A stretch of 64,000 nucleotides of DNA. Source: Magnetococcales bacterium. Lineage in GTDB: Bacteria > Pseudomonadota > Magnetococcia > Magnetococcales > DC0425bin3. How positions within the stretch are numbered: the stretch's first letter is position 1; every line of letters begins with the position of its first letter. The stretch lies in assembly GCA_015228935.1 (NCBI GenBank), contig JADGCO010000003.1:36987-100986 (forward strand). The letters run 5' to 3'. Under the pieces are notes generated by a model. The model was not told the origin of the DNA. It saw only the letters and a list, made by a program, of their open reading frames with translations, and did not search any database. The position numbers and the translations under genes are program-made. Below, piece by piece: positions 27,699 to 45,500 of this stretch.

Positions 27699-28487
27699 TC
27701 ATGACTCATCATCGAGGGCGATCATTTCCTCGATGAGGGGTTCCGATGGTGGCGCGACATGTTCGGGTTCTCTCTTGCCGGCATCTTCGGGCATGGTTTC
27801 CTTGCGAATCTGGACCCCTTCCAGGATGGAATCCGACATTTTGCGCAGGAAGAGGCTCAGGGAGCGGATGGCATCGTCGTTGCCGGGCACCACAAACTGG
27901 ATCGGATCGGGATCACAATTCGTATCCACAAGAGCCACGACGGGGATGCCCAGTTTATTGGCCTCCTTGACGGCGATGGCTTCCTTGTTGGTGTCCACGA
28001 CGATCAGCACATCCGGGAGATAATCCATTTCCTTGATGCCACCGAGCGCCCGTTGCACTTTTTCGCGTTCGCGATCGAGCTTCTGGACCTCTTTTTTGGT
28101 CAGGGCTTCGAAGGTGCCATCATTTCTCATCTTTTCGATGTCTTTGAGGTGCCGGATGGAACCTTGGATGGTCTTCCAGTTGGTCAACGTGCCCCCGAGC
28201 CAACGGTGGTTGACGTAGTATTGATGGCACCTTTCGGACTCCTGGGCCACCATATCGACCACCTGACGTTTGGTGCCGACGAAGAGGACGTGCCCTCCCT
28301 TGGCGACTGCGTCCTGGACAAAATTGCAGGCGTTGCGCAGCATCTGGACGGTCTGCTGCAAATCGACAATATGGACCTTGTTGCGGGAGGTGAAAATATA
28401 GGGAGCCATTTTGGGATTCCAGCGTTTGGTCTGGTGACCAAAATGAAATCCGGCTTCCATGAGTTCGCGAATCGTGATCTTGACCAC
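27699..28487 (-). CDS. rpsB: 30S ribosomal protein S2
   Basis: S2 is a small-subunit protein needed for S1 recruitment. The 262-residue protein starts at GTG ([19 protein letters not shown]) with GGAG seven bases upstream. It shows the family blocks [28 protein letters not shown] and [13 protein letters not shown]. It carries an acidic C-terminal extension of about 30 residues ([20 protein letters not shown]) beyond the conserved fold. It is the first gene of the minus-strand operon. Confidence 0.97.
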
Positions 28488-28848
28488 TCGGTTCTCCGTT
28501 CTTTCGGTTCAAGCCGCCGCCGGGACCTCATAGCGCAATCCAACCCGGTTTGCCGGGCACCGGGATTGCAAGTCAATCGGCGTGTGTTGTCGGGTATCCA
28601 GACCATTCTGGACGTGCAACCTTTTAACACCAACCCTTTCCACTTGCAACCCCTTCTCCATATGTTCGCCGCAGAAACCCCGCAAAAAACAGATTGGCTC
28701 TCCTCCTGCTCCGGCGACAAAGATTCTAATCGCAACAGGATGATTTTCCGGATACGCGGACTGGCTTGAACAAAATGTGTTGCACGCATATACTGGGGAC
28801 GTGGGGATGGATGGATCATCACATCGTTGACACATCACGCACCGGGAG
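28488..28848. other. Divergent control region rpsB / AAA ATPase
   Basis: This 361-bp region must hold the promoter and leader of the rpsB operon on minus and the ATPase promoter on plus. The plus promoter is clear (28766-28794). I could not find a convincing minus-strand -35/-10 pair, and did not identify an S2-binding leader structure with confidence. Confidence 0.5.
28766..28794 (+). promoter_or_regulatory. Sigma70-like promoter of the ATPase/nuclease pair
   Basis: TTGAAC (28766-28771) and TATACT (28789-28794) are separated by exactly 17 bp. The -10 matches consensus at 5 of 6 positions and the -35 at 4 of 6. The predicted transcription start is about 28801, giving a leader of roughly 50 nt. 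Confidence 0.65.
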
Positions 28849-29886
28849 ATGTCTGTATTGTTTACCAGACTCGATTTGAAAAATTTTACGGCATTCAAGC
28901 ATTTGGATCTGGAATTTTCACCCGGTATCAATATTTTTACCGGGGCCAACGGTTCCGGCAAGACGCATATATTGAAACTTCTATACTGCGTTCTGGCTGT
29001 CGGAAACATCAAGGGAAACAATCAAGACGCAACAGAATATTTTGAAAATAAATTGTTTTCAGTTTTCAAACCGGACAGAACATGCAATCTTATTCGACTG
29101 TTTCCAGACATTGACAAAGCCTCGATAAACATATCCTGGCGTGGGTTTCACGTATCTTCAGATATTTCAATATCAATCGCACACGAATCGATTGAATTCA
29201 ATCATAGTGAGAGCCAAAGATGGCCATACCAGGAAGCCATGCCTGTCTATATTCCAGTCAAGGAATCCATATCATTTGCGCCTGGTTTCCTATCTATAAA
29301 TGAAAGGTATGAATTATCGTTTGAGGATATTTATTGCGATATTGTAAAATTAGCATATTTTCCAAGATTAAAAAATATTAATGAAGAATATCAAGATATT
29401 CTCGACACAATATATAATATTATTGGCGGGGACGTTGTCGTAAAAGGAGAATCATTCTATCTGAAACATAAAAACACAGAACAAAAAATGTCGCTGGTGG
29501 CAGAAGGGTTCCGCAAACTGGCTTTGCTTTGGCAACTTGTACGCAATGGTTCGCTGGCAAAAGGCACCACTCTCTTCTGGGATGAGCCAGAAGCAAACTT
29601 GAATCCTTTTTTAATGCAACATGTGGCAAAAATTTTGATCCTGCTGGCCAATCGCAATATCCAGATTTTCGTGGCAACACACAATTATGCTTTCTTGAAT
29701 GAAATTGATTTACAAAAAGAGGATACTCCAGTCAAATATTTTTCCCTGCATAACGTAGGAGAAAATAATATTCAAGCCAACGCCAGCACATCATATCTTG
29801 ATATTTCTCCAAACTTGATTGCCGATGAATATATGCGTCTTTACGATTTGGAGATTATAAAATCTCTTGGAGGTATCTCATTGTGA
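28849..29886 (+). CDS. AAA/RecF-like ATPase (AAA_15/AAA_21 type)
   Basis: This 345-residue ABC-class ATPase resembles the RecF/OLD/SMC-like proteins of defence systems. The Walker A motif GANGSGKT (residues 32-39) follows the diagnostic N-terminal strand LKNFTAFKHLDLEFSPGI. A signature-like motif (SLVAEGFRKLALL) sits before Walker B TLFWDEPEANLNP, and a switch His is in IFVATHNYAFLNE. There is no TOPRIM domain, unlike OLD or AriB-containing systems. GGGAG abuts ATG 28849, so the TTG at 28858 is a possible alternative start. The gene overlaps the next one (GTGA at 29883), implying a stoichiometric partner. The region is clearly AT-rich relative to the upstream operon. The exact family is not identified. 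Confidence 0.85.
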   Translation: MSVLFTRLDLKNFTAFKHLDLEFSPGINIFTGANGSGKTHILKLLYCVLAVGNIKGNNQDATEYFENKLFSVFKPDRTCNLIRLFPDIDKASINISWRGFHVSSDISISIAHESIEFNHSESQRWPYQEAMPVYIPVKESISFAPGFLSINERYELSFEDIYCDIVKLAYFPRLKNINEEYQDILDTIYNIIGGDVVVKGESFYLKHKNTEQKMSLVAEGFRKLALLWQLVRNGSLAKGTTLFWDEPEANLNPFLMQHVAKILILLANRNIQIFVATHNYAFLNEIDLQKEDTPVKYFSLHNVGENNIQANASTSYLDISPNLIADEYMRLYDLEIIKSLGGISL

Positions 29887-30443
29887 TTATTTATGAAAAA
29901 AAGTGGCAAGAAGGAGATCTTTTTTTTGATTTTTCCAAAGCGGACAGTGTTATTAAACTGGACGGTCCTGATCACGGTTTGAGCCATCTTCGGATAAAGT
30001 CTGTTGACTTTGTTGTTGAGTGGCCCGACGGGTACTGGTTAATTGAAGTAAAAGATCCCGAAAATTCACAAATACCAGAAGAGAAAAAGATTTCTGAAAA
30101 ATGTGCTTTCCTTAAAAAACTTCAATCAAAATATCTATTTGAAGATTTGCATGTTAAATTCATGGACAGTTTATTTTATTTATCTTTGGATCAGGGGATA
30201 CCAAAGAAACCATTGTATTATTTTATATTGATCGGTATTTCGCATTTGAAACCATCTATGCTCAAGGTGCTTACCCAAGAAATGTTGGCACACCATGAAT
30301 GCCTCAAAGGCCCAAAAAGGGGGTGGTCCAAAGGATTTTCGATTGCAATCTTTAACCTCGCAGCATGGAGAAAACATTTGCCACGCTGTCCAGTCACGCG
30401 CAGCGGGTTGAACCACTCAGTGCTTGATCAAAATAGAATATAA
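29883..30443 (+). CDS. PD-(D/E)XK nuclease-like partner of the ATPase
   Basis: This 186-residue protein is of unrecognised family. Residues 35-60 read as a classical PD-(D/E)XK core: a strand ending KSVDFVVEW with Asp42, a turn, then YWLIEVKDPE with Glu55 and Lys57, followed by a helix rich in Lys and Glu. This supports a metal-dependent nuclease, but is a motif reading only. The remainder has predicted beta and helical segments without a known DNA-binding motif. The GTG start overlaps the ATPase stop, so the pair is translationally coupled. Known two-gene defences such as Septu or PARIS pair a similar ATPase with other nuclease types. Confidence 0.6.
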   Translation: MIIYEKKWQEGDLFFDFSKADSVIKLDGPDHGLSHLRIKSVDFVVEWPDGYWLIEVKDPENSQIPEEKKISEKCAFLKKLQSKYLFEDLHVKFMDSLFYLSLDQGIPKKPLYYFILIGISHLKPSMLKVLTQEMLAHHECLKGPKRGWSKGFSIAIFNLAAWRKHLPRCPVTRSGLNHSVLDQNRI

Positions 30444-30559
30444 ACCGGGCCTTGATTATCGTTTCAGCCACAACAATGATCAAGGCCATAAATCGGCTCT
30501 GCAACATTGGCAACCGCCAACAGGCAGCATCACAACATGAGAGTAAAAGGAAATCATCC

Positions 30560-30991
30560 GTGCTTTTCCAAATATTTGCTGTGATATCTTTCTTTTATTG
30601 GTTCATTTGCGGGTTTACGGCAACCTCCATAGCCGTATCCAAGGGATATAATGGCCTTTTATGGTTCATACTCAGTGTTTTTGGTCCTGTTTCCTTGTTG
30701 CTCATATGGCTGCTGCCAACGGCAAAATGGATGGCGGATGCACAAGCAGCCGAAATACCGCCAACAGAGATCCAAAGCCAACCTGAGTTCACACCAAGAA
30801 AGTGTAAAAATTGCGGGGCGATCATTGAACCGGAAGAGATTCAGACAAGCACGAAACCGGCTGCTGCCCCCAAAAAGGCAAAAAGGCCCGAGACTTTTGG
30901 CACGGTCATGTTTTTGTTTGGCATGGGTATTGTGCTTGGACTGATTTTTGCGGCTCTGATGATTGGCACCGATACGCTGGTTTTTGAATAA
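30560..30991 (+). CDS. Small membrane protein with CxxC, unknown function
   Basis: I do not recognise a family. From GTG 30560 (AAGGA seven bases upstream) the product has 143 residues. Two hydrophobic segments occur near the N-terminus (FQIFAVISFFYWFICGF and GLLWFILSVFGPVSLLLIW). A cytoplasmic-type linker contains one CxxC (RKCKNCGAII), like half a zinc ribbon, and Lys/Pro-rich sequence. A third hydrophobic helix lies at the C-terminus (GTVMFLFGMGIVLGLIFAAL). Earlier in-frame starts at 30452 (TTG) and 30476 (ATG) would add a polar stretch before the first helix. It follows the nuclease-like gene by about 115 bp. Confidence 0.6.
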   Translation: MLFQIFAVISFFYWFICGFTATSIAVSKGYNGLLWFILSVFGPVSLLLIWLLPTAKWMADAQAAEIPPTEIQSQPEFTPRKCKNCGAIIEPEEIQTSTKPAAAPKKAKRPETFGTVMFLFGMGIVLGLIFAALMIGTDTLVFE

Positions 30992-31087
30992 ACAAGCCGA
31001 TACAGGGTTTGTCGTTCGCGTAATTTTACACAATCTTTTTGCGCGAGCCTGGTAATCATGCGTGCAACGTTGCGGAAAAAGGTTGAC

Positions 31088-31912
31088 ATGGAAAATCGCG
31101 ATCATTTTACCAAACAAAATTTTAAATATGGTGCATTCCAGATTCGGGATGGTATTGGTTATTGGAACGGGGATCCTGCTGTCCAGATAAATATGCAGAC
31201 AACTTCTTCGAAATTCTGCATCATGGAAGGAATCTGGAATCCTGATGAAAGAGAAATCATAAGCCGTCATCCAGTTGCCGTAGCTGGTCTCTGTATCTGG
31301 GGAAAATATGATTGTATTGTTAAATTTCAAAAGATCGGAAAAGGCAATCCAAGTGCAGAGCGTTCCCTGAGCAATCCAAAAGATCGGGCTGACGTTCTGA
31401 AAAGGGTCATAAACAAGCAGGAAATCAGAGAGGTTGTCATTTCCAAACATCCTTTTGGAGACTACCAATCGAATATGATCGCATGGCAGGCTGAAACCGT
31501 ACAACGTTTTCAAATAAACAGACTCTATTATGCCTTACCTATCGAAGAATATACGGCAATTCTGGATGAAATAAAAACATACATTCCAGAAAAATTACAT
31601 CGCGAGATCCTTGATTTGCTAAATAATCACTATGATCAGTTAAAAAACAAAATCATCAATTCGATGGATGCCGAGGTTGAGTTTCTTTACCCCATGCGCA
31701 ATGAAATTTTAACTCCGGAAGAGTCCTATGTCTGGCCTTACCAAAACCTGAAAATAGATTTGGGTATAGAAGACCTGGATGAGGTTCATATTCCTTACCA
31801 GGCCAGGAAAAACGGTGCGCACATTCCGCCGATATTATTAGGCGTCTTGGGTATACCCTATCCCTATTACGAACGAAGAGATCCGACTGATATTATCAAT
31901 ATTGTTCCGTAA
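31088..31912 (+). CDS. Orphan protein, unknown function
   Basis: I do not recognise this 274-residue protein. ATG 31088 follows AAAGG at good spacing; an upstream ATG at 31058 would add ten residues. It is soluble in appearance with mixed alpha/beta composition. Notable segments are GAFQIRDGIGYWNGDPAVQI near the start, CIMEGIWNPDEREII, a helical middle (KLHREILDLLNNHYDQLKNK) and a Pro/Tyr-rich end (GIPYPYYERRDPTD). No catalytic or nucleotide-binding motif stands out. Base composition is AT-rich like the rest of the island. It converges with the ABC exporters across an imperfect inverted repeat. Confidence 0.6.
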   Translation: MENRDHFTKQNFKYGAFQIRDGIGYWNGDPAVQINMQTTSSKFCIMEGIWNPDEREIISRHPVAVAGLCIWGKYDCIVKFQKIGKGNPSAERSLSNPKDRADVLKRVINKQEIREVVISKHPFGDYQSNMIAWQAETVQRFQINRLYYALPIEEYTAILDEIKTYIPEKLHREILDLLNNHYDQLKNKIINSMDAEVEFLYPMRNEILTPEESYVWPYQNLKIDLGIEDLDEVHIPYQARKNGAHIPPILLGVLGIPYPYYERRDPTDIINIVP

Positions 31913-31936
31913 AAGGCTGTCCATTAACTCTTTTTC

Positions 31937-32087
31937 GAGGCCATGGCCTTGATCGTCCTTTTGGCCACCCTGTGTCCGATCCTGAACCGAAATATGCGCA
32001 TCATATTGAAAATATTATAAAATTACATGATCCGCTCAATTTGCCTGACCATGCTGGCCGAAAGAATGATCAAGGCCGAGGCCATGA
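31937..32087. repeat. Imperfect inverted repeat with about 31-bp arms
   Basis: The arm 31937-31967 matches the reverse complement of about 32055-32087 with few mismatches and a 2-nt indel. The intervening loop is about 87 nt. It lies between convergent genes and could form a large hairpin terminator for both, or be a remnant of a small mobile element. Confidence 0.6.
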
Positions 32088-32102
32088 TCATGGCCCATTT
32101 TT

Positions 32103-33791
32103 TCATCTCCGGTTGATAATTTCTCCTGTGATGACACCATTATCAAATTTCAAGAGCCGGTCAGCGGCATAAAAATAGCGGTCGTCATGGGAAACAGCAA
32201 TAACTGTTTTTCCCCTATTGCGCAAATCGGGCAGCAGTACATCGTAAAAATATTTCCTGAAATTGGGGTCCTGATCGGCGGCCCATTCGTCAAGAATATA
32301 TATGGGTTTATCTTCCAACATGGCAGCAATATAGGCAAGACGTTTACGCTGACCTGTAGAAAGATTTATATTGGTAAACTGTCCGTCCAAGAATTTTGTA
32401 TTATTTTCCAGACCCATTTTTACCAACTGATTTCGAACCTGATCTTCATTCAAATCCTTGACACCATAAATACGTTCAAAAATATGGAAATCAGAAAATA
32501 CTGCAGAAAAATATTCTCGATAATTGGCGTAATTTTTTTTATTAACAGGGATGCCATTCAACAAAATTGTCCCCTCACAAAAATAATACAGTCCAACCAG
32601 GACTTTTAATAAGGTTGATTTGCCGCTTCCATTGCTGCCGATAATAAAAACAATTTCATTATATAAAATTTCAAAATTGATGGGTCCTATAGCGAAAGTT
32701 GGTTTGCCAGATGAATCGATATATTCAAATCGAACATTTTTAACACTCAAGGAGTGAAAATCAATAGTCTCCTGATCTGGAACATTATCTTCTATATTGT
32801 CGGCAATAGCTGCGTCAATTGTTTCTTCAAGATTGCGTAAATTAATTATAGAAATTTCCATTTTTAACAACTTTGGCAACAGATTAAGCACCCAATCCAA
32901 GGGTCCTATCGTCAAAAATAAGAATGATGTAATTAATTTAACAACCAAAATAGGAGAAACATCAACAAAAAGCGGCCAAATAAAAATTATTATAGCAAAT
33001 AAACTGTAGAAAAATATTTCTGAAAATGACAGAACAAAAATTTCGTCAATGGCAGCCAAGCCCTTATAATGTTCAACCTCTTTGGCAAGCATTTCCTGGT
33101 GTTTAAACAAGTCACGGCTTTTGGCGCTATTAATTTTAATCTCTTTAAACCCCTTAAATGTTTGCTCGAAAATATTAAAAAACATTATTTCGCGCTCTAT
33201 TGAGTAATCTATTTCCTTCACAATAAGATCGCGTCTTTTTAAAAACACAAAAAATGCCAAAGATATTGCAGAAATGCCAATTATAAATCCAAAAATAGAA
33301 AGGTAAGCCACGTAAAGCATTGTAAAAAAGACCAGTATAGCTGATAATATGGATTTAAAAACTATAGGAGCATTCTGTGAAACAATTGACGAGTCTTGAG
33401 TTAAAGAGTTGCAAACATAATTATACCCTATACTTTCAATAAAATCCAGATTGGTTAAGCGAATTTTTTCAGTTATACGCACTCTGATATTAAACAGCCC
33501 TTCTTCAACCATTTTAAATGCTTCAGAAAAAACAAAATATTGTGCATATATAAACACACCTAAGAGAATCATATAAATTACAAGATAGTGCATATGAATA
33601 TTATTATTTGAAAGCATTTCTGCTGCATGATTAACAATTGCCAGCAACAAAGCATTGGCAAGACCGGCACTGACGGCCATAAAAATTAACTTGGATTTTG
33701 GTCGGTCGATCTCTTTGTTAATCCAGCCAAGAATATTTTTAGCAGGATGTGTAAATTTGACCTGTTTTATTTTAAAATTAAAAAACTTCAT
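32103..33791 (-). CDS. SyrD/PvdE-type ABC exporter 1 (fused TMD-NBD)
   Basis: This 562-residue half-transporter of the cyclic peptide exporter (SyrD/PvdE) family has an N-terminal domain of about six hydrophobic helices (residues 30-300) and a C-terminal ATPase. ATPase motifs are Walker A GSNGSGKST, signature NLSTGQRKRLAYIAA, and the family-specific Walker B YILDEWAADQDPNFRKYFY with H-loop AVSHDDRYF. It should form a dimer in the inner membrane. Family members export lipopeptides or peptide siderophore precursors. It is the last and most distal of three tandem paralogues, 107 bp from its neighbour, and strongly AT-rich. No HlyD-type adaptor gene was found nearby. Confidence 0.92.
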   Translation of the reverse strand: MKFFNFKIKQVKFTHPAKNILGWINKEIDRPKSKLIFMAVSAGLANALLLAIVNHAAEMLSNNNIHMHYLVIYMILLGVFIYAQYFVFSEAFKMVEEGLFNIRVRITEKIRLTNLDFIESIGYNYVCNSLTQDSSIVSQNAPIVFKSILSAILVFFTMLYVAYLSIFGFIIGISAISLAFFVFLKRRDLIVKEIDYSIEREIMFFNIFEQTFKGFKEIKINSAKSRDLFKHQEMLAKEVEHYKGLAAIDEIFVLSFSEIFFYSLFAIIIFIWPLFVDVSPILVVKLITSFLFLTIGPLDWVLNLLPKLLKMEISIINLRNLEETIDAAIADNIEDNVPDQETIDFHSLSVKNVRFEYIDSSGKPTFAIGPINFEILYNEIVFIIGSNGSGKSTLLKVLVGLYYFCEGTILLNGIPVNKKNYANYREYFSAVFSDFHIFERIYGVKDLNEDQVRNQLVKMGLENNTKFLDGQFTNINLSTGQRKRLAYIAAMLEDKPIYILDEWAADQDPNFRKYFYDVLLPDLRNRGKTVIAVSHDDRYFYAADRLLKFDNGVITGEIINRR

Positions 33792-33898
33792 TTAGATTGT
33801 CTCACCCATGTATATGATACAACATTTTTCAAATAAAGAATTTATTAATTGTTTAATTTATTTTTATGTTTAATTAATCTCTTTATAAATTATTATAT

Positions 33899-35539
33899 TC
33901 AAGGTTTATGTTGTATCAAAACACCATTTTCAAGTTTAAAAGCCCGATCTGAGGCATAAAAAAATCGGTCATCATGTGATACTGCAATAATTGTTTTGCC
34001 TGAATTTCGCAAGTCAGGCAGCAATACATCATAAAAATATTTTCTGAAATCAGGATCCTGGTCAGCAGCCCATTCGTCAAAAACGTATATTTGTTTATTA
34101 TCAAGCAGGGCAGCAATATAAGCCAATCGTTTACGCTGACCCGTGGAGAGATTTATATTTGTAAACTGGCCATCCAAAAATTTGGTATTGTTGTCCAGAC
34201 CCATGCGTTTCAAGAGAATCCTGATCTGCTCCTCATCAACATCTTCAACCCCATAGAGCCGCGAGAAAAGGTGAAAATCAGAAAAAACCGTGGAAAAATG
34301 CTCGCGATATTCTGTGTAACCATCTTTATCAACCGGAACATCATCTATAAAGATGGTTCCTTCAGTCGGATAATACAGACCGACCAAAATTTTCAACAAA
34401 GTAGATTTGCCGCTGCCATTGTTACCCACAATAAATAAAATTTCATCACGACGTAATTCAAGGTTGACAGGACCAAGAGAAAATGGGATTTCATCACTGG
34501 AACTCAAATATTCGAATCGTACATTTTCCAAGCGAATTGATCGAAACAGGGGAGGGGCAAGCAGGTCAGCATGATCAATTTTATGATTTTTAATAATTTT
34601 ATCCAGCTTTTCTTCCAGATTTTGTAAATTTATTACAGACGATTCTACTTTAGACAAAATTGGCAACATGGTAAAAACCCAGTTGAGTGGCCCTATAATT
34701 AAAAACATGTACGAAACACTTATTTTTACAATTAAACTGGCAGAAACTTCAGTAAAGAACGGCCAAATAAATATAACAACAGCAAGAAGTGTATAAAAAA
34801 ATATTTCTGAAAAAGACAAAACGTAGACTTCGCTGATGGTGGCCAATTCTTTATAGTGTTTTGCATCCTCAGCCATCGCCCTCTGATGTACAAATAAGTC
34901 ACGGCTCTTGGCATTATTAATCTTTATTTCTTTGAATCCACTAAATGTCTCCTCGAAAATATCAAAAAACATGACATCCTTTTTTCTGGATTGATCAAAC
35001 CTTTCCATGATAGCATGTTGCTTTGTTAAAAAAAACCATATTGCCAGGGATATGGATACTGCACCGATCATAAATCCAATTTTGGATAGAAATGCTATGT
35101 AGAGCATAATAAAAACAACCAAAATTGCGGACATGATTGTTTTAAAAATATTTGTGGCTCCCTGGGAAATAAATATAGAATCTTGAGAAAGTGCATTATA
35201 AACATAATTATAGCCAATTTTTTCAACAAACACCAACTCTGTCAGACGAATTTTGTTGGCGATACGTGTCCTGACTTTTCGCAACCCCTCCTCAATCATC
35301 AATACAGCCTTGGACAGCACGCCATGTTGTGAATAGATAAATACTGCCAAGATGATGATATAAAAAAATAAATAGTGCAAACGAACCGGACCATCAGACA
35401 GCAAATTTGTTGCATGATTGACGATAGACAGTAACAAGCCATTCGTAACACCGGCAAGAATCGCAAGATAAACCAATTTGGTTTTTGGGCGATCAATTTC
35501 TTTATCGATCCAATTGATAAGATTTTTGGCCGGCAGCAT
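33899..35539 (-). CDS. SyrD/PvdE-type ABC exporter 2 (fused TMD-NBD)
   Basis: This 546-residue paralogue shares the architecture of its neighbours: six hydrophobic segments, then an ATPase domain with Walker A GNNGSGKST, signature NLSTGQRKRLAYIAA, Walker B YVFDEWAADQDPDFRKYFY and H-loop AVSHDDRFF. The opening NLINWIDKEIDRPKTKLVYLA is close to that of exporter 1, showing origin by tandem duplication. The membrane halves have diverged more than the ATPase halves, as expected if they pair as heterodimers or bind different substrates. It lies 45 bp after exporter 3 on the same transcript. Confidence 0.92.
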   Translation of the reverse strand: MLPAKNLINWIDKEIDRPKTKLVYLAILAGVTNGLLLSIVNHATNLLSDGPVRLHYLFFYIIILAVFIYSQHGVLSKAVLMIEEGLRKVRTRIANKIRLTELVFVEKIGYNYVYNALSQDSIFISQGATNIFKTIMSAILVVFIMLYIAFLSKIGFMIGAVSISLAIWFFLTKQHAIMERFDQSRKKDVMFFDIFEETFSGFKEIKINNAKSRDLFVHQRAMAEDAKHYKELATISEVYVLSFSEIFFYTLLAVVIFIWPFFTEVSASLIVKISVSYMFLIIGPLNWVFTMLPILSKVESSVINLQNLEEKLDKIIKNHKIDHADLLAPPLFRSIRLENVRFEYLSSSDEIPFSLGPVNLELRRDEILFIVGNNGSGKSTLLKILVGLYYPTEGTIFIDDVPVDKDGYTEYREHFSTVFSDFHLFSRLYGVEDVDEEQIRILLKRMGLDNNTKFLDGQFTNINLSTGQRKRLAYIAALLDNKQIYVFDEWAADQDPDFRKYFYDVLLPDLRNSGKTIIAVSHDDRFFYASDRAFKLENGVLIQHKP

Positions 35540-35584
35540 CGTTACAAATCCCTCAGAAGCTGTCCATGAATTTTCGGAAAAAAA

Positions 35585-37219
35585 TCATTCTCTGACGATC
35601 TTGCCCGCGTCCAGCTTGATGACGCGATCTGCAATATGGAAATATTTATCATCATGAGTTACTGAAATAATTGTCTTACCATTTTTATGTAAATCCGGAA
35701 GCAATATTTCATAAAAATATTTTCTGAAGTTTGGATCCTGGTCGGCGGCCCATTCGTCAAATATATATATTTCCTTGTCGTCCATCAATGCCGCAATATA
35801 TGCCAATCGCTTACGCTGCCCGGTTGACAGATTTATATTGGTATATTTTCCATTGATAAAATCGGTATTTTTTTCAAGCTTCATAATTTTCAACAATTCT
35901 CTGAGCCGTTCATCATCAACATGCTTGACACCATAAAATTTATCAAAAATATGGAAGTCGGAAAAAATTGCTGAATAAAGTTCGCGATACTCTGGATAAT
36001 CATCACGGTTCAGTCGAACACCATCCAGGACAATATGGCCTTCGGAAGGATAATAAAGTCCGAGCAATATTTTTAACAATGTCGATTTGCCACTCCCATT
36101 TCCACCAACAATAAACAATGTTTCATTGCGTTTAATTTCAAGATTGATGGGACCAATTGAAAAAATATAATTATTTTCAGAATCAAAATATTCAAATTGA
36201 ACATTTTCCAGACAAACCATTTTAAATTTCGGTTGCGGATTGGGCTTGCAAACTTCCACGCTGACATTTTTAATCGACTCATCGAGCATTATTTCCAATT
36301 TTTTCAAATTATTGACCGCCATTTCCACCTTGATGAAAATGGGCAGATTGCTGACAATAAAATCAAGAGGACCTACGACAAGATAAATGAAGCATACAGT
36401 CAGTTTGGCAATCAGTACGGAAGATACACTGGCCATCATCGGCCAGATAAATATAATCGAAGCCAACAGGGAATAAAAAAATATGTCGGAAAAATTCATG
36501 ATAAAGGCCATGCTGATACCGGCCCGCGACCTGAGCTGTTCAACATTTTTGGCGAGGTCCACCTGGTGACAGTAAAGATCATAATTTTTGGCTTGATTTA
36601 TTTTTATTTCCTTGAACCCGGTAAAGGTTTGTTCAAATGCTTCAAAATATTTTCTTTGCCGTTCCGTGGATTCATCCAAGTCCGCCACGATTTTCTGGCG
36701 TCGTTGCAGATAAAACAGAAATCCCAACGCAATGGCCGCCGCAGCGATGACAAACGCCGTCATGGAGAGCCAAGCAATATAGATGAGGGTCGTGACCAGC
36801 AGGGCAGCCGAAACCAGGGATTTGAATATCAGGCTGGATCCCTGGGAAATGAGGGTTGTCTCCTGGGATAAACAATTGAAAATACTCTGAAAACTCGTGT
36901 TTTCAACAAACGTCAGCTCTGCCTGCCGAATTTTATTGGCCACACGCACCCGTACCTTGCAGAGGATGTTTTCGACAATGACCGCCGTGGTCGCGAGAAC
37001 GTAATATTGGGCATACGAAAAAGTACCGAGAAGTATGGCGTAAATAATCAGATAATGAATCTTGACACTCTCACCGCTGGCCGTAATCTGCGAGGCATGG
37101 TTGACGATGGCCAGCAGCAGGCTGTTGGAAAGACCAGCCGTCACTGAAAGAAATACAAGCTTGTTTTTGGGTTGTTCACCCTCTTCTATCATCCATTCGA
37201 CAAGATTTTTGGCTATCAT
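35585..37219 (-). CDS. SyrD/PvdE-type ABC exporter 3 (fused TMD-NBD)
   Basis: This 544-residue protein is the first of the three exporters in transcription order. It carries Walker A GGNGSGKST, signature NLSTGQRKRLAYIAA, Walker B YIFDEWAADQDPNFRKYFY and H-loop SVTHDDKYF. All catalytic residues are present. Its GC content is slightly higher than that of the other two copies. Divergent orientation from the TolC-like gene, which leads into the PKS cluster, suggests a joint export role, but the PKS product is unknown and the link is inference. Confidence 0.92.
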   Translation of the reverse strand: MIAKNLVEWMIEEGEQPKNKLVFLSVTAGLSNSLLLAIVNHASQITASGESVKIHYLIIYAILLGTFSYAQYYVLATTAVIVENILCKVRVRVANKIRQAELTFVENTSFQSIFNCLSQETTLISQGSSLIFKSLVSAALLVTTLIYIAWLSMTAFVIAAAAIALGFLFYLQRRQKIVADLDESTERQRKYFEAFEQTFTGFKEIKINQAKNYDLYCHQVDLAKNVEQLRSRAGISMAFIMNFSDIFFYSLLASIIFIWPMMASVSSVLIAKLTVCFIYLVVGPLDFIVSNLPIFIKVEMAVNNLKKLEIMLDESIKNVSVEVCKPNPQPKFKMVCLENVQFEYFDSENNYIFSIGPINLEIKRNETLFIVGGNGSGKSTLLKILLGLYYPSEGHIVLDGVRLNRDDYPEYRELYSAIFSDFHIFDKFYGVKHVDDERLRELLKIMKLEKNTDFINGKYTNINLSTGQRKRLAYIAALMDDKEIYIFDEWAADQDPNFRKYFYEILLPDLHKNGKTIISVTHDDKYFHIADRVIKLDAGKIVRE

Positions 37220-37613
37220 GGATTGGGTGATCCGGAACCATTTGAAAACGAGATTGATGTGTGCAAAACCCAGGCAGATCCTAAGCGTTCACAAAGACCT
37301 GTGCAAGTCATTTTTTTTTAAAAAACCCTTGACGTGATTTACTTGACCATGGCAGTTTCCGACGGCAGCTTAATTTTTTGTAAGCGACTCGGTCCTGATC
37401 AAGAAACAAATTGTCCTGATTTTTGATCCCAGACGGCTTGAATTTGGCTGAACAGGAATGGTTCAACTTTGTTGCCAGGGATTCAATGCCCGGCAGTCCG
37501 GCGTCTGGAAGACGGCAGGAAAGGACTTTAAAATAATGAAATTGCCTTGCAATGGCAATAAGTTGTCCAGGGATAGAACGTGTATCCGCTACACAGAAGA
37601 AAGGATTGCGATC
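37220..37613. other. Divergent control region exporters / TolC-like gene
   Basis: This 394-bp spacer holds poly-T and poly-A stretches near 37310 and a weak minus-strand promoter candidate. The TolC-like reading frame is formally open back to 37458, but those 52 codons do not resemble a signal peptide and are treated as leader. No operator symmetry was recognised. Confidence 0.45.
37278..37306 (-). promoter_or_regulatory. Weak candidate promoter of the exporter operon
   Basis: On minus, TTGCAC (37301-37306) and TAGGAT (37278-37283) have a 17-bp spacer, about 60 bp before the exporter 3 ATG. Both boxes are mediocre matches. Confidence 0.3.
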
Positions 37614-39377
37614 ATGGTTGGAAGTCTGCATCACAAAACCGGTAAGTTGTTCATGGCCATGCTGCTGGCGGCCATGGCGACGGGAGTGCCCCAGGATGCT
37701 GCCACGGCGGGTGTCGATGGCAAACCCATCTCCCTGAGCGATGTCGTCCAAAGCACCATCAGTCACTCCTCGGAAATCATCATCGCCTCGGTCCAGAAAG
37801 AGTTGGCCAGAGCCGACGAACAGGAAGCCTCGGCCAATTTCGACCCCAAACTGAGCGCCAGTTATGCCCTCAACTATGTGCGGGGCTACGAGTTTCCCAA
37901 GGAGTTGCGGGCCATGGGAGAAGCCGGCAAGCAATCCACCTTCATGACGGATCATCAAAACAACAAGGCACTCAAGCTGGGCCTGGGCGGATTGTTCAGA
38001 ACCGGTATCTTTTCCGAATTGTCGGTCGAAATGCTCTCATCGGAGGATACCAAGAAAAAGTATGACCTGCAAAACGGCTTGAGTGCGATGGCTGCCTTGC
38101 CGGCACCTGCCAGGACGGCCCTCGGCGTGAACAATCTGAGTGCCGACGCGGGATCCTACATGCCCGTCAACCCCTCCTCCATCCAGTTCATGATCAACAT
38201 TCCCATGCTCAAAGGCCGTGGCGACCGGGAAATGGCCACGTCCAATGAAACATCCAAGCGTTTGCAACGGGAAGCCGCCGATGCCCGCATCAGCCATGCC
38301 GTCGCCACCATCCTGAACAAATCGGTCGTTGCCTATTGGAACTACAAGGCCGCCTTGTCAACCTTGGACTATCGTCTGCAATCCGAAGCAAAAGTCAAAC
38401 AGTGGGCGGACAAGATTCCCAACGTGACGAGCAAAGCCCAGCCCAATGCCCGCACAGCCAAGAAAAATACCCCGGCGACAAAAGGCGTGGACAATACCAA
38501 GCCTCAAGCCAACTACACTTCGGTCAAGGAACAGATTCAGGGTTATCTGGACAAGAAGGCCAATGATGTGTCGGCAGCCCGCCAACAGGTGATCGCCGCC
38601 CGCAACAATCTTGCTGCGGCTGCCGGTATTCCTGCTGCCGAGGCCCAGGCCGTAGGTCAGGCCACCGATGAATTCCCCCGCAATTGGGATTCCGTCATGC
38701 GTTCTTTCAACATTGATGATGCCTCCAAGCGCTGGACCGAAATGGCCCTGGCCCAACGGCTGGATGTCAAGGCCTCCCGGCTCGAAAAAGATGCCATGAC
38801 CGCCCTGAATGAAGGGGCCAAGAATCAACTGATGCCCAGCCTGGATCTCACCTTGATCGCCAAACGGGATGGGCTGGAACTCGGCAAATCGGGAGCCGAT
38901 GGCTTTGCCAATTCCCTCAGTGAAAATACCGGTGACCTTGGCTTCACCGGCATGATCGCCATGGCCTATCCCATCGGCAACAACAAGGCCGAAAGCATGG
39001 TGGCCAAAACCAACCTGGGCGTCATGAAAAACCAGTCCGAATACCAGGACAAGCTGCGTACCGTGGCCCTGGATGTCAATACAGCCGCCAACGAAATCAA
39101 AAACAATCTGCAACAGGTGCAGGCGATCAAACGCTCCCTGGACTCCTATGGTTCGGCCCTGGCCTCCGCTGAAGCCAGCAAAATTCAACAACCCTCGGAT
39201 GTCAACAACCTCATGGACTCCGAAACCCGCTGGATCGATGCCGTGGTCGATTTCATCAAGGCCCTGAACAACACCGCCGCATCCATCACCAATGCCCGGT
39301 ATCAAACCAGCACCCTGGTCGAACCGATTCAAGACATCAAACAAGTCAAACTGACCAGCCTGACTGAACTGCCCTGA
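37614..39377 (+). CDS. TolC-like outer-membrane efflux protein
   Basis: This 587-residue outer-membrane factor has AAAGGA eight bases before ATG 37614 and a signal peptide (hydrophobic FMAMLLAAMATG, cleavage near ATA). The mature protein shows the duplicated helical-hairpin pattern of the OEP family: VQSTISHSSEIIIASVQKEL and FDPKLSASY in the first half, then RLDVKASRLEKDAMTALNEG and QLMPSLDLTL in the second. Between them is a hydrophilic insert rich in Lys, Thr and Pro (near ARTAKKNTPATKGVDNTKP) that most TolC proteins lack. It is longer than typical TolC. It could be the outer-membrane exit for the product exported by the divergent ABC proteins, though an adaptor protein would still be needed. 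Confidence 0.85.
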   Translation: MVGSLHHKTGKLFMAMLLAAMATGVPQDAATAGVDGKPISLSDVVQSTISHSSEIIIASVQKELARADEQEASANFDPKLSASYALNYVRGYEFPKELRAMGEAGKQSTFMTDHQNNKALKLGLGGLFRTGIFSELSVEMLSSEDTKKKYDLQNGLSAMAALPAPARTALGVNNLSADAGSYMPVNPSSIQFMINIPMLKGRGDREMATSNETSKRLQREAADARISHAVATILNKSVVAYWNYKAALSTLDYRLQSEAKVKQWADKIPNVTSKAQPNARTAKKNTPATKGVDNTKPQANYTSVKEQIQGYLDKKANDVSAARQQVIAARNNLAAAAGIPAAEAQAVGQATDEFPRNWDSVMRSFNIDDASKRWTEMALAQRLDVKASRLEKDAMTALNEGAKNQLMPSLDLTLIAKRDGLELGKSGADGFANSLSENTGDLGFTGMIAMAYPIGNNKAESMVAKTNLGVMKNQSEYQDKLRTVALDVNTAANEIKNNLQQVQAIKRSLDSYGSALASAEASKIQQPSDVNNLMDSETRWIDAVVDFIKALNNTAASITNARYQTSTLVEPIQDIKQVKLTSLTELP

Positions 39378-39397
39378 CACCTGCGCCTGACTTTTTT

Positions 39398-39454
39398 ACG
39401 ACGGTTGCGGGTTGTACACGCTGCACCTTTCTTGTATGATTCCGCAACCGTCGT
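39398..39454. repeat. 13-bp perfect inverted repeat framing the PKS promoter
   Basis: The arms ACGACGGTTGCGG (39398-39410) and CCGCAACCGTCGT (39442-39454) are perfect reverse complements, with 31 bp between them. A complete -35/-10 promoter occupies the interval. The spacing and symmetry fit two half-sites of a dimeric regulator better than a terminator, since no U-tract follows. Confidence 0.85.
39412..39440 (+). promoter_or_regulatory. Sigma70-like promoter of the PKS operon
   Basis: TTGTAC (39412-39417) and TATGAT (39435-39440) have a 17-bp spacer. The predicted start near 39447 falls in the right arm of the inverted repeat, about 65 bp before the PKS1 start codon. Confidence 0.7.
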
Positions 39455-39511
39455 CCCTGCCCGGATGATTTTATGGCCTGTTTTCTGGTTTTACCTTGAG
39501 GATGGCTTGCA

Positions 39512-42500
39512 TTGGCTGGTCGATTTGCCCATAAAATACATGAAAATCTGGTTGAATTACTGTGTTTTCACGCAGAATCCACACCGGACAAGATGGCGTT
39601 CACTTTTCTGAAGGATGGCAAGGTCGAGACCGACCGGTATACTTTTGCCGAACTGGATCGGCAGGCACGGGCCATTGCCGTGGAGCTGGCCCGCCTGGGT
39701 GGACGCCAGGGGGAGCGTGCCCTCCTGCTCTATCCGCCCGGCAGTGAATTCATGGCGGCCTTCATGGGGGCACTCTACGCCGGGATCATCGCCATTCCCG
39801 CACCACCTCCCGATGCGGCCCGCCTGAGGAGAACCCTGCCCCGTCTGCGTACCATCGCTCAGGATGCGCAAGCATCCCTGGTGCTGGCCACCCGGGATGT
39901 GATCGACCTGTTGACCCGGGACCAGGATGATCTGGTCGATTTTCCGCCCATGCAGTGGCTGGCCAGCGATCAGGTGGCCGGGGAGTCCGCCTCAGCCTGG
40001 CAGATGCCACCCCTGGAAAAGCAAGGCATCGCCTTTTTGCAATATACCTCGGGTTCCACATCCATTCCCAAGGGCGTGGTGGTGACCCACCATAATATCA
40101 TCCACCATTCCCATCTGCTCCAGACAGCCTGGAAGTTTACGCCCGACAGCGTCAGCATCACCTGGGTCCCGTATTTTCACGATCTGGGCCTGATCGGCGG
40201 CCTGATTCAGCCCCTGTATAACGGCAACTCCTGCTATATTCTTTCACCTCTTACCTTTCTCAAGCGCCCCTTGCGCTGGTTGGAAGCGATTCATCGCTAT
40301 CGTGGGACACACTCCCATGGCCCCAACTTTGCCTACGAGCTGTGTGTCCATAAAATCACCCCTGAACAAAAAGCCACGCTTGACCTGAGCAGTTGGCAAT
40401 TCACCGGCAACGGTGCCGAGCCGGTCCGCAAAAGTACGCTGGACCGCTTTCAGGAAGCATTTGGTCCCTGCGGTTTTCGGGCTGATGCGCATTATCCCAT
40501 CTACGGCATGGCTGAAACGACGCTCATCGTCTCGACCAAATCCCATGGTGATCTGCCGCAGGCCATGGAGGCCGACCCCGTGGCCATGGGGACAAGACAA
40601 ACGGTCATCGATTACGATCCGGCAACAAGTCAGACCACCCTGCCGCCCGTATCCATCGTCAGCAATGGCCCCCCCATCGGCACCGTGCAGGTGGTGATTG
40701 TCGATCCGGACACATTGCACGCCCTGCCGGAAAATCGGGTTGGGGAAATCTGGGTCCAGGATGCCGGCGTGGCCCAGGGGTATTGGCAGCGCCCGGAAGA
40801 GAGTCGCGCCACCTTTCACGCCCGCCTGGCCGATGCCCCCGAACGGGGCGATTTTTTGCGCACCGGCGATCTTGGCTTTTTGCGCAACGGTGAACTCTAT
40901 CCCACCAGTCGTCTCAAAAATTTGATCATCATCGCCGGGGTCAATCATTATCCCCAGGATGTGGAGCTGACTGTCCAGAATGTCCATCCGGTCTTTCGTC
41001 CGGATCATTGTGTCGCTTTTGCCGTGGAAATTGACGAGACTGAACGACTTGTCATCGTGGTCGAGGTGGAGTACCGCCTGGAAGATTGGGAACCTTTGTT
41101 TGCCGCTGTGCGCCAGGCACTCTCCGAGACCCATGATCTGGAACTTTATTCCCTGCTGTTTCTCAAAAAGGGTCAAATCCTCAAGACCTCCAGCGGCAAA
41201 CTGCAACACAGCGCCTGCCGTAAAGCCTGGCTGGAACACTCTTTCGAGGTGGTGGCCAGTTGGCAACGTCATGTTCCTGCATCCCCGGTGATCAAATCCG
41301 CAACAATCGCGCCGGCATCCTCTACAGCAGGCATGCCAGCGACTTCGCCAGCAGCACCCTTGCCGGTGACCTCTACAGCAGGCATGCCAGCAACCTTGCC
41401 GACAGCACCCTTGCCGGTGACATCCACAGCGGACTTGCCAGCGACTTCGCCGGCAGCACCCTTGCCGGTGACCTCTACTGCAGGCATGCCAGCAGTCACG
41501 CCGGCAACGACGACATTGTCGGGGTCTCTCCCGTCTGCGGCACCTGGGTCTCTCCCGTCCGCAGCAACTTCCCAACCCTCTCGACCCGCAGCACCGGCCC
41601 TTGAAGCCTGGTTGCTGGCCCAACTGGCAAAACTCCTGGATGTTCCTGTCACCCAGGTGGACCGTCTGGCACCGTTTGCCAGTTACGGCCTGTCGTCCCA
41701 GGGGGCTGTCATGCTGGTCGGTGACCTGGAAGCCTGGCTGGGTGAGGAGGGACTGGCACCGACCCTGCTCTGGGATTATCCCACCATCGATCTGTTGACC
41801 CGGCACTTGTGTGGCGCTGCGCCCGGAACTGCGCCTCATGCCGGTATTCATTCAGCGTCCTCGCCTGCCGAACGTGGCGATCCCATTGCACACAACGATC
41901 CCATCGCCATCGTCGGTCTGGGGTTGCGCTTTCCCGGCAGCGACGATCCGGAACAATTTTGGAATCTTTTGCACCAGGGCATCGATGCCATCCGCGTCGT
42001 CCCCGATGACCGCTGGGACGCCGAACACTATTTTGCCCGGGAACCGGTCACTCCGGGGAAGATCAACTCCCGCTTTGGGGGATTTCTCGACCAGGTGGAT
42101 GGTTTTGACGCCGGATTTTTTGGCATCTCTCCCTATGAAGCCCAGGTGATGGATCCCCAGCAACGCCTGTTGCTGGAGGTCAGTTGGGAGGCCTTGGAAC
42201 AGGCCGGCATCAACCCGGAATCCCTGGCCGGCAGTGCAACCGGGGTCTTCATCGGCATCTGTTCAGACGACTATGGCCAATGGCTGCTCCAGGATGAGAG
42301 GACCATCAGTTCCTATACGGGCACCGGCAAGGCGATGAGCATTGCCGCCAACCGGCTTTCCTATCAACTGGATCTGCGGGGACCCAGTGTGGCGATTGAT
42401 ACCGCCTGCTCGTCGTCACTCGTGGCCATTCACCAAGCCTGTCAAGCACTCCGCAATGGAGAGTGCGATCTGGCTCTGGCCGGGGGGGTCAACCTGATCC

Positions 42501-45500
42501 TCACCCCGCACATGAGCATCGCCTTTTCCCAGGCCCAGATGCTTGCGGTCGATGGCCGTTGCAAAACCTTCGATGCCGCCGCCAACGGTTATGTGCGCAG
42601 CGAAGGGTGCGGTGTGGTCGTTCTCAAGCGTTTGAGCCATGCCCAAAAAAATGGGGATACCGTCCTGGCCCTGGTTCTGGGTTCGGCCATCAACCAGGAT
42701 GGCCGCAGCAATGGCTTGACCGCACCCAATGGTCTGGCACAACAGGCCGTCATTCGGCAGGCCCTGGCCGCAGCCGGCGTGACACCCGCCCAGATCACCC
42801 TGGCCGAGGCCCATGGAACCGGAACCCCCCTGGGAGATCCCATCGAAATGAAAGCCTTGCAGGCCGTCCTGAGCGCCGGGCGTCCAGCCGGGCAGCGGTG
42901 TGCCATCGGCGCGGTCAAAAGCAATATTGGTCACCTGGAGGGTGCCGCCGGGATTGCCGGCATCAGCAAGGTGGTGTTGAGTCTGCAACATGCCGAGATT
43001 CCTCCCAATCTGCATCTGCACACCCTCAATCCCCTCATCGAGCTGGACGCAACCCGCTTTTTCCTGCCGACCACCCCGCACCCCTGGGACTCCCCTGCTG
43101 CTGGTCGCCGAATTGCCGGTGTCAGCTCCTTTGGCTTTGGGGGGACCAATGCGCATGTGATCCTGGCCGAACCACCACCCGAGCCACCTGCCACTCCGGT
43201 AACTCCGACAGGGGAAGCGTCTTCTTCTTTGGCAATCCGGACAGGGGAAGCGTTTTCTTCTTTGGCAGTCCGGACAGGGGAAGCATTTTCTTCGGAGAGC
43301 GAACGCCCCTGGCATCTGCTCACGCTTTCCGCCAAGGATGGCAAAGCGTTGCAAGCCTTGGCGGACCGTTACCGTAAACTTTTTACCACCGAGTCAATCC
43401 CTTCTCTTGCCGACCTTTGTTTTAGCGCTAACGTTGGCCGGGCGGCTTTTTCCGAGCGTCTGGTCGTCACGGCAACCACCGGGGCAGAGATGCAGGCCGG
43501 CCTGGCCGCCTTCACAGCCAACCAGCCAGGCAACTGGCAAAGCGCCCGGGTCGATGGCCGACAGATACCCAGGGTGGCCTGGCTCTTTACCGGCCAAGGC
43601 TCCCAATATGTGGGCATGGGCGAGGCGCTGTATGCCACGCAACCCGTCTTCCGGGCTGCGTTTGCCCGCTGTCAGGCCATTCTCGAACCCCTCCTCGGCT
43701 GTTCCCTGCCGGATCTGCTGTGGCCCGGAGAGGGACAGTACGATGGCCGGCTCGACCAGACGGCCTATACCCAGCCGGCGCTGTTTGCCCTGGAGTATGC
43801 CCTGGCGGAAATGTGGCGGGCCTGGGGCGTCACCCCGACGGCGGTCATGGGGCACAGTGTCGGTGAATATGTCGCCGCCTGCATCGCCGGGGTTTTTTCG
43901 CTGGAAGATGGCTTGCGGCTCATTGCCGAACGGGGGCGGTTGATCAACTCCCTGCCTGGCAATGGCAGCATGGTCGCCGTCCAGACCGATGCGGCCCGGG
44001 TCACCGCCGCCATCGGCTCCGAAGCCCAGGTGGTGATTGCCACCATGAACGGTCCCAACAGTCAGGTCATCGCCGGGGAAAAGGAGGCCGTGGCCCGGGT
44101 GGCGACGATCCTCCAGAAGCAGGGGGTGGAACTCCGGCCCCTGACGGTCTCGCATGCCTTTCACTCCCCGCTCCTGGATCCCATCCTGGAACCCTTTGCC
44201 CGGGCTGCCCGGCAGGTCCGTTTCCAGCCGCCTCGCCTGCCGGTCATTTCCAACCTGACCGGTCAGGCCATCAGCGACGCCATGGCCTCCGCCGACTATT
44301 GGGTGGCCCATGTGCGGCAACCGGTCCGTTTTGGCGACGGCATGCGCTCCCTTCTGGAATCGGGATGCGATGTTTTTCTGGAGATTGGCCCGCAGCCCAC
44401 CCTGTTGGCCCTGGGGCAGCGAATTGCCCCTGCTGTTCCCGGCCCGGAAGGCAGCGCGGAACGTCTCTGGCTGCCATCGTTGCGTCCCAAAAAAATGGTC
44501 TGGCCGCAAATTTTATCCACCCTCGGCCAACTCGTTCTGCGTGGTGTGGCCATCGACTGGCGGGGATTTGACCAGGGATATCGCCGCCAGCGGATCGCCC
44601 TGCCCACCTATCCTTTCCAGAGGCAACGCCACTGGCTGGCCACCCCGCCCGCCACGCTGTCCCGCGCAGCCGGCACCCGCCCATCGGCAGGGGGCAGCCA
44701 CGGTCAGGTGACCAACAATCTGCTCGGACGCCGGGTGCAATCGCCTCTGCTGCGGGGAATGTTGTTTGAATCCTCGTTCAATATCGAACGGCTGCCTCTC
44801 CTGGGAGAACATCGGGTTTTTGCCCATCTGGTGGTCCCGGCGGCGGCCCAGTTGTCCCTGTTGCTGGCGGCGGCCCGGGCCGGCTTTGGAACCTCCTCCT
44901 GCGCCCTGGAAGACATCATCTTTCCGCAGGCGCTCGTCATCCCCGAACAACGCGGACGCCGGGTACAGCTTCTCCTGGAACCCCCCGACGCTGCCCAGGA
45001 ACAAAACGGCCACCGTTTCCGGTTGCTCAGTCAGGCGGAAGAGAGTGACCCGGATGCGGAAGACCGCGTGCCAACCTTCCCGGGCAACACCCCCCAATCC
45101 TGGGAGGAGCATGCCAGTGGCCGCCTGCGGGCCGGACCGGTCACCCCCCGGCTGCCGGAGACTCCCCTGGCCACCGTGCAGGCTCGTTGCCCGCAACAGA
45201 TCCTGGCACCGTTTTACACGGACATCTGGCAGCAGAGCATCACGCTGGGGCCGGAGTTTCGCTGGGTGGAGAGCCTCTGGCAGGGGGAAGGCGAACTCCT
45301 GGCCCGTCTGCGTCCGGAAACGCCCGCGCTGGCCCAAAACGACCCGGGACTCCACGCCGGTCTCATCGACTCCATGCTCCAGATCATCACCGGTCTGCTC
45401 TCCCTGACCGCAACCGAGGCCGTGGTCCCGTTTTCCCTGGAGGGATTTCATTATCTGGGAAATCCTGACCGATCCCAACTGTGGAGCCATTTGCTTCTGC

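Follow-up and report, generated by a model that had tools for sequence, protein, structure and literature searches.

Two adjacent open reading frames, located on the forward strand of the window (the whole stretch of 64,000 nucleotides analysed), encode an ABC-type ATPase and a small predicted nuclease (Table 1). Both are present at the position and on the strand indicated in the first-pass annotation, and the GTGA overlap described there is real. The pair stands alone, upstream of rpsB. The ATPase has two candidate start codons. The GGGAG motif abuts the ATG at 28849 (345 aa), and lies 9 nt upstream of the TTG at 28858 (342 aa), which is a normal spacing. Because of this spacing, and because its relatives start with M(M)FTRL, in agreement with the TTG, the latter is probably the start. 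The nuclease gene begins with a GTG included in the overlap, and GGAGGT is found 8 nt before it; the overlap is, as judged from the sequence, a translational coupling, and is entered as such in Table 1. Neither gene is truncated, and the motifs and ribosome-binding sites of both are intact. The 17-bp-spaced promoter claimed for the pair exists as a TTGAAC-N17-TATACT sequence. Its description as strong is unsupported, since the match is 9/12, and sites of this grade number 9 in the region versus 5.6±2.5 in shuffled sequences, hence not above chance. The GC content of the pair is 37.6-38%, versus 54.8% for rpsB, which defines an AT-rich island as had been stated; the further label of orphan genes fits only the interval 30452-31912, as exporters come next. 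The stem-loop following the nuclease gene lacks a T tract, and is the probable 3' end of the operon. The RNA family search identified no RNA family in the 28000-38000 interval, and hence no known retron-like RNA.

Table 1. Features identified at the ATPase-nuclease locus (positions refer to the window).
Feature	Position	Strand	Evidence
HEC-02A, PtuA/OLD-type ABC ATPase, 342 aa	28858..29886	+	PDLC04213 E 5e-106; AAA_21/AAA_15; motifs
HEC-02B, 186-aa PD-(D/E)XK-type nuclease (predicted)	29883..30443	+	PDLC04227 E 8e-63; conserved residues
GTGA stop/start overlap of ATPase and nuclease genes (predicted translational coupling)	29883..29886	+	-4 overlap shared by 17/17 complete pairs
Promoter-like TTGAAC-N17-TATACT	28766..28794	+	9/12 match; unproven
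Stem-loop right after nuclease stop codon	30446..30497	+	MFE -20.9 kcal/mol, z -4.9

The larger protein had been called an AAA_15/21-type ATPase, and Pfam searches agree (AAA_21, E 6.5e-19; AAA_15, E 2.8e-16). Its residues 5-340 match the PADLOC-DB model of HEC-02A, PDLC04213 (profile 3-334/337, E 5e-106). The Walker A motif is GANGSGKTH, the signature AEGFRK is degenerate, the Walker B motif LFWDEPEANLNP retains the catalytic Glu, and the H-loop is THNY; the C-terminus extends for 67 residues beyond the H-loop His. Key residues in the alignments are K38 (Walker A), E246 and H278. The AlphaFold2 model (pLDDT 81.8) is nearest, in Foldseek searches, to PtuA of Septu/retron I-A and to SMC/Rad50 heads (E 5e-15 to 1e-11). 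The protein is compact (342 aa), and has no coiled coil of DNA-bridging length.

The smaller protein matches the HEC-02B model PDLC04227 along residues 5-174 (profile 7-179/184, E 7.9e-63), and HEC-02B models are matched also by 16/16 aligned relatives. The Asp42...Glu55-x-Lys57 core originally recognised in this protein is conserved in 81 linked pairs (D42 79/81, E55 81/81, K57 80/81), though conservation at these positions is partly selected, because the regular expression used to pick genome pairs demanded D/N42, D/E55 and K57. D27 and K92, absent from the first description, are invariant (81/81 each) and lie outside the selecting expression; the Magnetococcales set was chosen without the pattern. 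D27, D42, E55 and K57, plus the invariant K92, are the predicted catalytic residues. The AlphaFold2 model (pLDDT 85.7) features elements in the order β-β-β-α-β, with strands at 22-25, 43-47 and 50-57; long helices come next, and then a strand at 111-117. D42 opens the second strand and E55/K57 close the third, as in PD-(D/E)XK cores. In the Foldseek comparison with the PDB, 36 of the best 50 matches are named PD-(D/E)XK enzymes, among which EcoO109I, BspD6I, HincII, Hjc and MUS81; none has E <= 0.001, and the best nuclease scores E 0.058. In the structural check suggested at the outset, the predicted fold is compatible with a restriction-nuclease core, but no single PDB match is significant. 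Pfam searches, including those with the nuclease profile, revealed no family, and the PDB sequence search with the same profile found nothing. The small protein alone, searched against the genome contigs, gave 50 pattern matches and 0 confirmed relatives.

According to these profile matches, the pair is a stand-alone member of HEC-02, a family already catalogued in PADLOC-DB. Both proteins match the A and B models over near-full length, and gene order and adjacency are alike. HEC-02 was reportedly defined in a 2024 preprint by Payne et al. The acronym HEC denotes Hma-embedded candidates (PMC12988326, PMC12111858); the window copy, in contrast, lies alone upstream of rpsB, outside Hma and BREX. 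Antiviral activity has been reported for several HECs, HEC-06 among them (PMC12988326), and for HEC-04 (PMC12111858). In the literature searched, which does not include the defining preprint, no statement on HEC-02 activity and no mechanistic study were found. A 2026 survey lists pairs of an OLD-ABC ATPase and a PD-(D/E)XK nuclease among the auxiliary modules of BREX, and proposes such OLD-ABC modules as back-up effectors (PMC12839542). The OLD-ABC and PD-(D/E)XK-REase dyads of BREX/BR loci that appear there have the same two-component composition as the window pair, to which they are likened on this ground. Magnetococcales, Methylomonas and Sphingobium homologues of the pair are also found inside BREX operons, whereas the window copy is outside BREX. 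Given the HEC-02A and HEC-02B matches, and the OLD-ABC/PD-(D/E)XK pairs in PMC12137116 and PMC12839542, the claim of an undescribed system is not supported. New here is one more stand-alone HEC-02 copy, the family and the pairing of ATPase and PD-(D/E)XK nuclease being already known.

The effector had been described as neither TOPRIM nor HNH, and this proved correct. PtuA of Septu (PtuAB) and retron I-A is the closest solved fold to the window ATPase, but the effector is PD-(D/E)XK-like rather than HNH, and no reverse transcriptase is present; Septu membership was rejected, as no HNH family was found on the small protein. PARIS (AriAB), Gabija and OLD share an OLD-type ABC ATPase coupled to a nuclease, but the window pair has neither a TOPRIM domain nor a helicase. 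Membership in these systems was rejected because TOPRIM is missing in both proteins and in the next genes. PD-T4-4 similarly combines an ATPase with a small nuclease, in which D…D…ExK occurs in the same register as in HEC-02B. Its ATPase is however longer (462 aa in one Magnetococcales relative), and the profile match to HEC-02B is weak (hhalign E 0.11, probability 0.5%). Since the nuclease has no match to the PD-T4-4_B model up to E 1, and given the hhalign value, membership in PD-T4-4 was rejected as well.

The distribution of the family was analysed by a genome-wide search for pairs based on the ATPase alignment. The best 80 loci retrieved by the ATPase profile from genome contigs belong to many phyla and one archaeon, and include Pseudomonadota, Verrucomicrobia, Chloroflexi, Planctomycetes, Methanocalculus and others. 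It had been asked whether homologues are scattered without the ATPase. They are not. A match to the nuclease profile adjoins the ATPase in 74/80 loci chosen on the ATPase alone, a count mildly circular because pattern-positive members of these 80 loci had served to build the profile; the motif scan of ATPase-selected loci gives a less circular view of the linkage. Two of the 6/80 loci without a nuclease match run off the contig. In 17/17 complete Magnetococcales/Pseudomonadota pairs the nuclease start overlaps the ATPase stop by the same -4 arrangement. Pairwise distances of the two proteins are correlated (r 0.61, versus a maximum of 0.16 in 1000 permutations), shared phylogeny contributing to the value.

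The resemblance of the ATPase to RecF/SMC_N and AAA_21 proteins could suggest a housekeeping role in RecF-like DNA repair, rather than in defence. Yet the nuclease family is patchy: 16/48 genomes of the host class contain it, and so do 2 of the roughly 350 Pseudomonadota sampled outside the class (one HEC-02B sub-model). Homology of the window with the congener G002 ends, a short way upstream of rpsB, at 28584, and the ATPase-nuclease pair is absent from this locus in G002; from this comparison, the island carrying the pair is regarded as lineage-specific. Its GC content is low, and homologues occur on 8 plasmids (protein search), in viral contigs (10 loci with the ATPase profile), and embedded in BREX operons. 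The search of the phage collection gave no match. A repair role is very improbable, and was rejected for patchiness and missing synteny.

BREX operons host several relatives of the pair. In the Methylomonas plasmid pLM6 the pair is located between brxC and pglX, and likewise in the Sphingobium plasmid pTomMM15c, where the genes are unannotated and were assigned by order and size; the loci retrieved with the BrxC, PglX, PglZ and Lon copies of pTomMM15c coincide with those retrieved with the Methylomonas BREX proteins. Genes resembling pglX and pglZ/brxL border the pair in two Magnetococcales loci (L034 and L036). BrxC, PglX or PglZ account for about 20/125 immediate neighbours of the pairs versus 1/72 control genes (Fisher p 6e-4; 64 + 61 pairs, controls at least 6.5 kb away, approximate counts read from family tallies). 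Next to the window copy are orphan genes and peptide exporters, and no recognised defence gene, be it of BREX, Hma or another system. The pair could be an auxiliary or back-up effector dependent on another system, for instance BREX, and the window copy would then be a decayed or inactive relic. The many homologues inside BREX operons, the lack of an adjoining partner in the window and the back-up role proposed for OLD-ABC modules (PMC12839542) would fit this explanation. It is nonetheless unlikely, as the window genes show no sign of damage in length, motifs or ribosome-binding sites, BREX matches occur at only 18/109 loci, most ATPase-selected loci having no BREX gene in the stretch examined, and a comparable pair, WonAB, works alone.

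The HEC-02 models, the conserved catalytic residues, the near-obligate linkage and the association with BREX in relatives argue for defence, and the two-gene ATPase and PD-(D/E)XK reading first advanced for this locus is well supported. We favour, with a probability of about three in four, that the pair is a stand-alone, translationally coupled HEC-02 anti-phage module, in which the ATPase is the sensor-regulator and the PD-(D/E)XK protein the effector, most likely abortive. The ATPase would oligomerise in the ATP state, bind the nuclease and hold it silent. A phage-induced trigger would free or activate the nuclease, which may then cut nucleic acid, either phage DNA or host DNA, tRNA or rRNA. 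This cutting would stop the infection and, as in WonAB and PARIS, would most likely do so by an abortive route. Among experimentally proven systems, the one nearest in design and mechanism is WonAB of Vibrio cholerae, which needs both of its proteins and the active site of each; WonB toxicity requires WonA, translation halts while the chromosome stays intact and infection is aborted, and the system functions alone (PMC12137116). In WonAB as in the window, the ABC ATPase comes first and the PD-(D/E)XK nuclease second, a comparison made by architecture and not by sequence. WonA has in addition a C-terminal extension predicted to bind WonB, whereas the window ATPase is compact. HEC-02 would work like WonAB and PD-T4-4, a likeness of function which leaves same-family status aside.

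Direct action on invading DNA, with no host suicide, is a less probable alternative to the abortive module. The Rad50/SMC-like ATPase would recognise foreign or replicating DNA structures, and load the nuclease, which would then degrade DNA of phages or plasmids. The similarity of the ATPase fold to SMC/Rad50 heads, the PD-(D/E)XK fold, typical of DNA cutters, with restriction enzymes and Hjc in the weak Foldseek list, and the homologues hosted by BREX, a DNA-level system, all agree with it. WonAB, the best characterised analogue, spares however genomic DNA and stops translation (PMC12137116), and the 342-aa ATPase has no coiled coil long enough to bridge DNA.

HEC-02 is widespread across phyla and little studied, and the window adds one stand-alone member in a lineage of magnetotactic bacteria, the Magnetococcales. 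Residues singled out by the alignments are D27, D42, E55, K57 and K92 in the nuclease, and K38, E246 and H278 in the ATPase. The natural occurrence of stand-alone and BREX-embedded versions makes testable the back-up-effector idea of PMC12839542. It is a doubtful proposal that HEC-02 is a separate mechanistic class of ATPase-gated PD-(D/E)XK immunity, marked by a compact ATPase without the WonA extension and by an active site including the extra invariant Asp27 and Lys92, and working both alone and as a back-up when BREX is inhibited.

Other sequences of interest were noticed in the course of the analysis. A PD-T4-4-like operon, encoding an ATPase of 462 aa and a nuclease of 219 aa, is present at L162:3619-5669 (genome G034) and in 7 other Magnetococcales genomes; at L162 it is located directly downstream of a purF-like gene, and is separate from HEC-02 loci. 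At locus L046 (G036:C425) only a C-terminal HEC-02B remnant is found, the ATPase being missing; this is probably a decayed copy. In the window, the GGCCTTGAT/ATCAAGGCC hairpin arm of the stem-loop 30446-30497 recurs at 31943-31965 (31945) and 32057-32095 (32069), and the recurring arms mark ends of convergent transcription units. Two orphan ORFs follow the pair on the + strand. The first (30452-30991, 179 aa) has hydrophobic segments and a weak zinc-ribbon/treble-clef match, the second (31058-31912, 284 aa) belongs to no family. The interval 32103-37219 on the - strand encodes three tandem paralogous ABC exporters of the cyclic-peptide type (TIGR01194, E ~1e-95), which are 51-61% identical to each other and have a GC content of 34-41%. 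On the + strand, the interval 37458-47851 encodes, by sequence reading, a TolC-like outer-membrane efflux protein and, after it, a fatty-acyl-AMP-ligase/polyketide-synthase megagene (2779 aa). This is probably a natural-product cluster, which the three exporters may serve.
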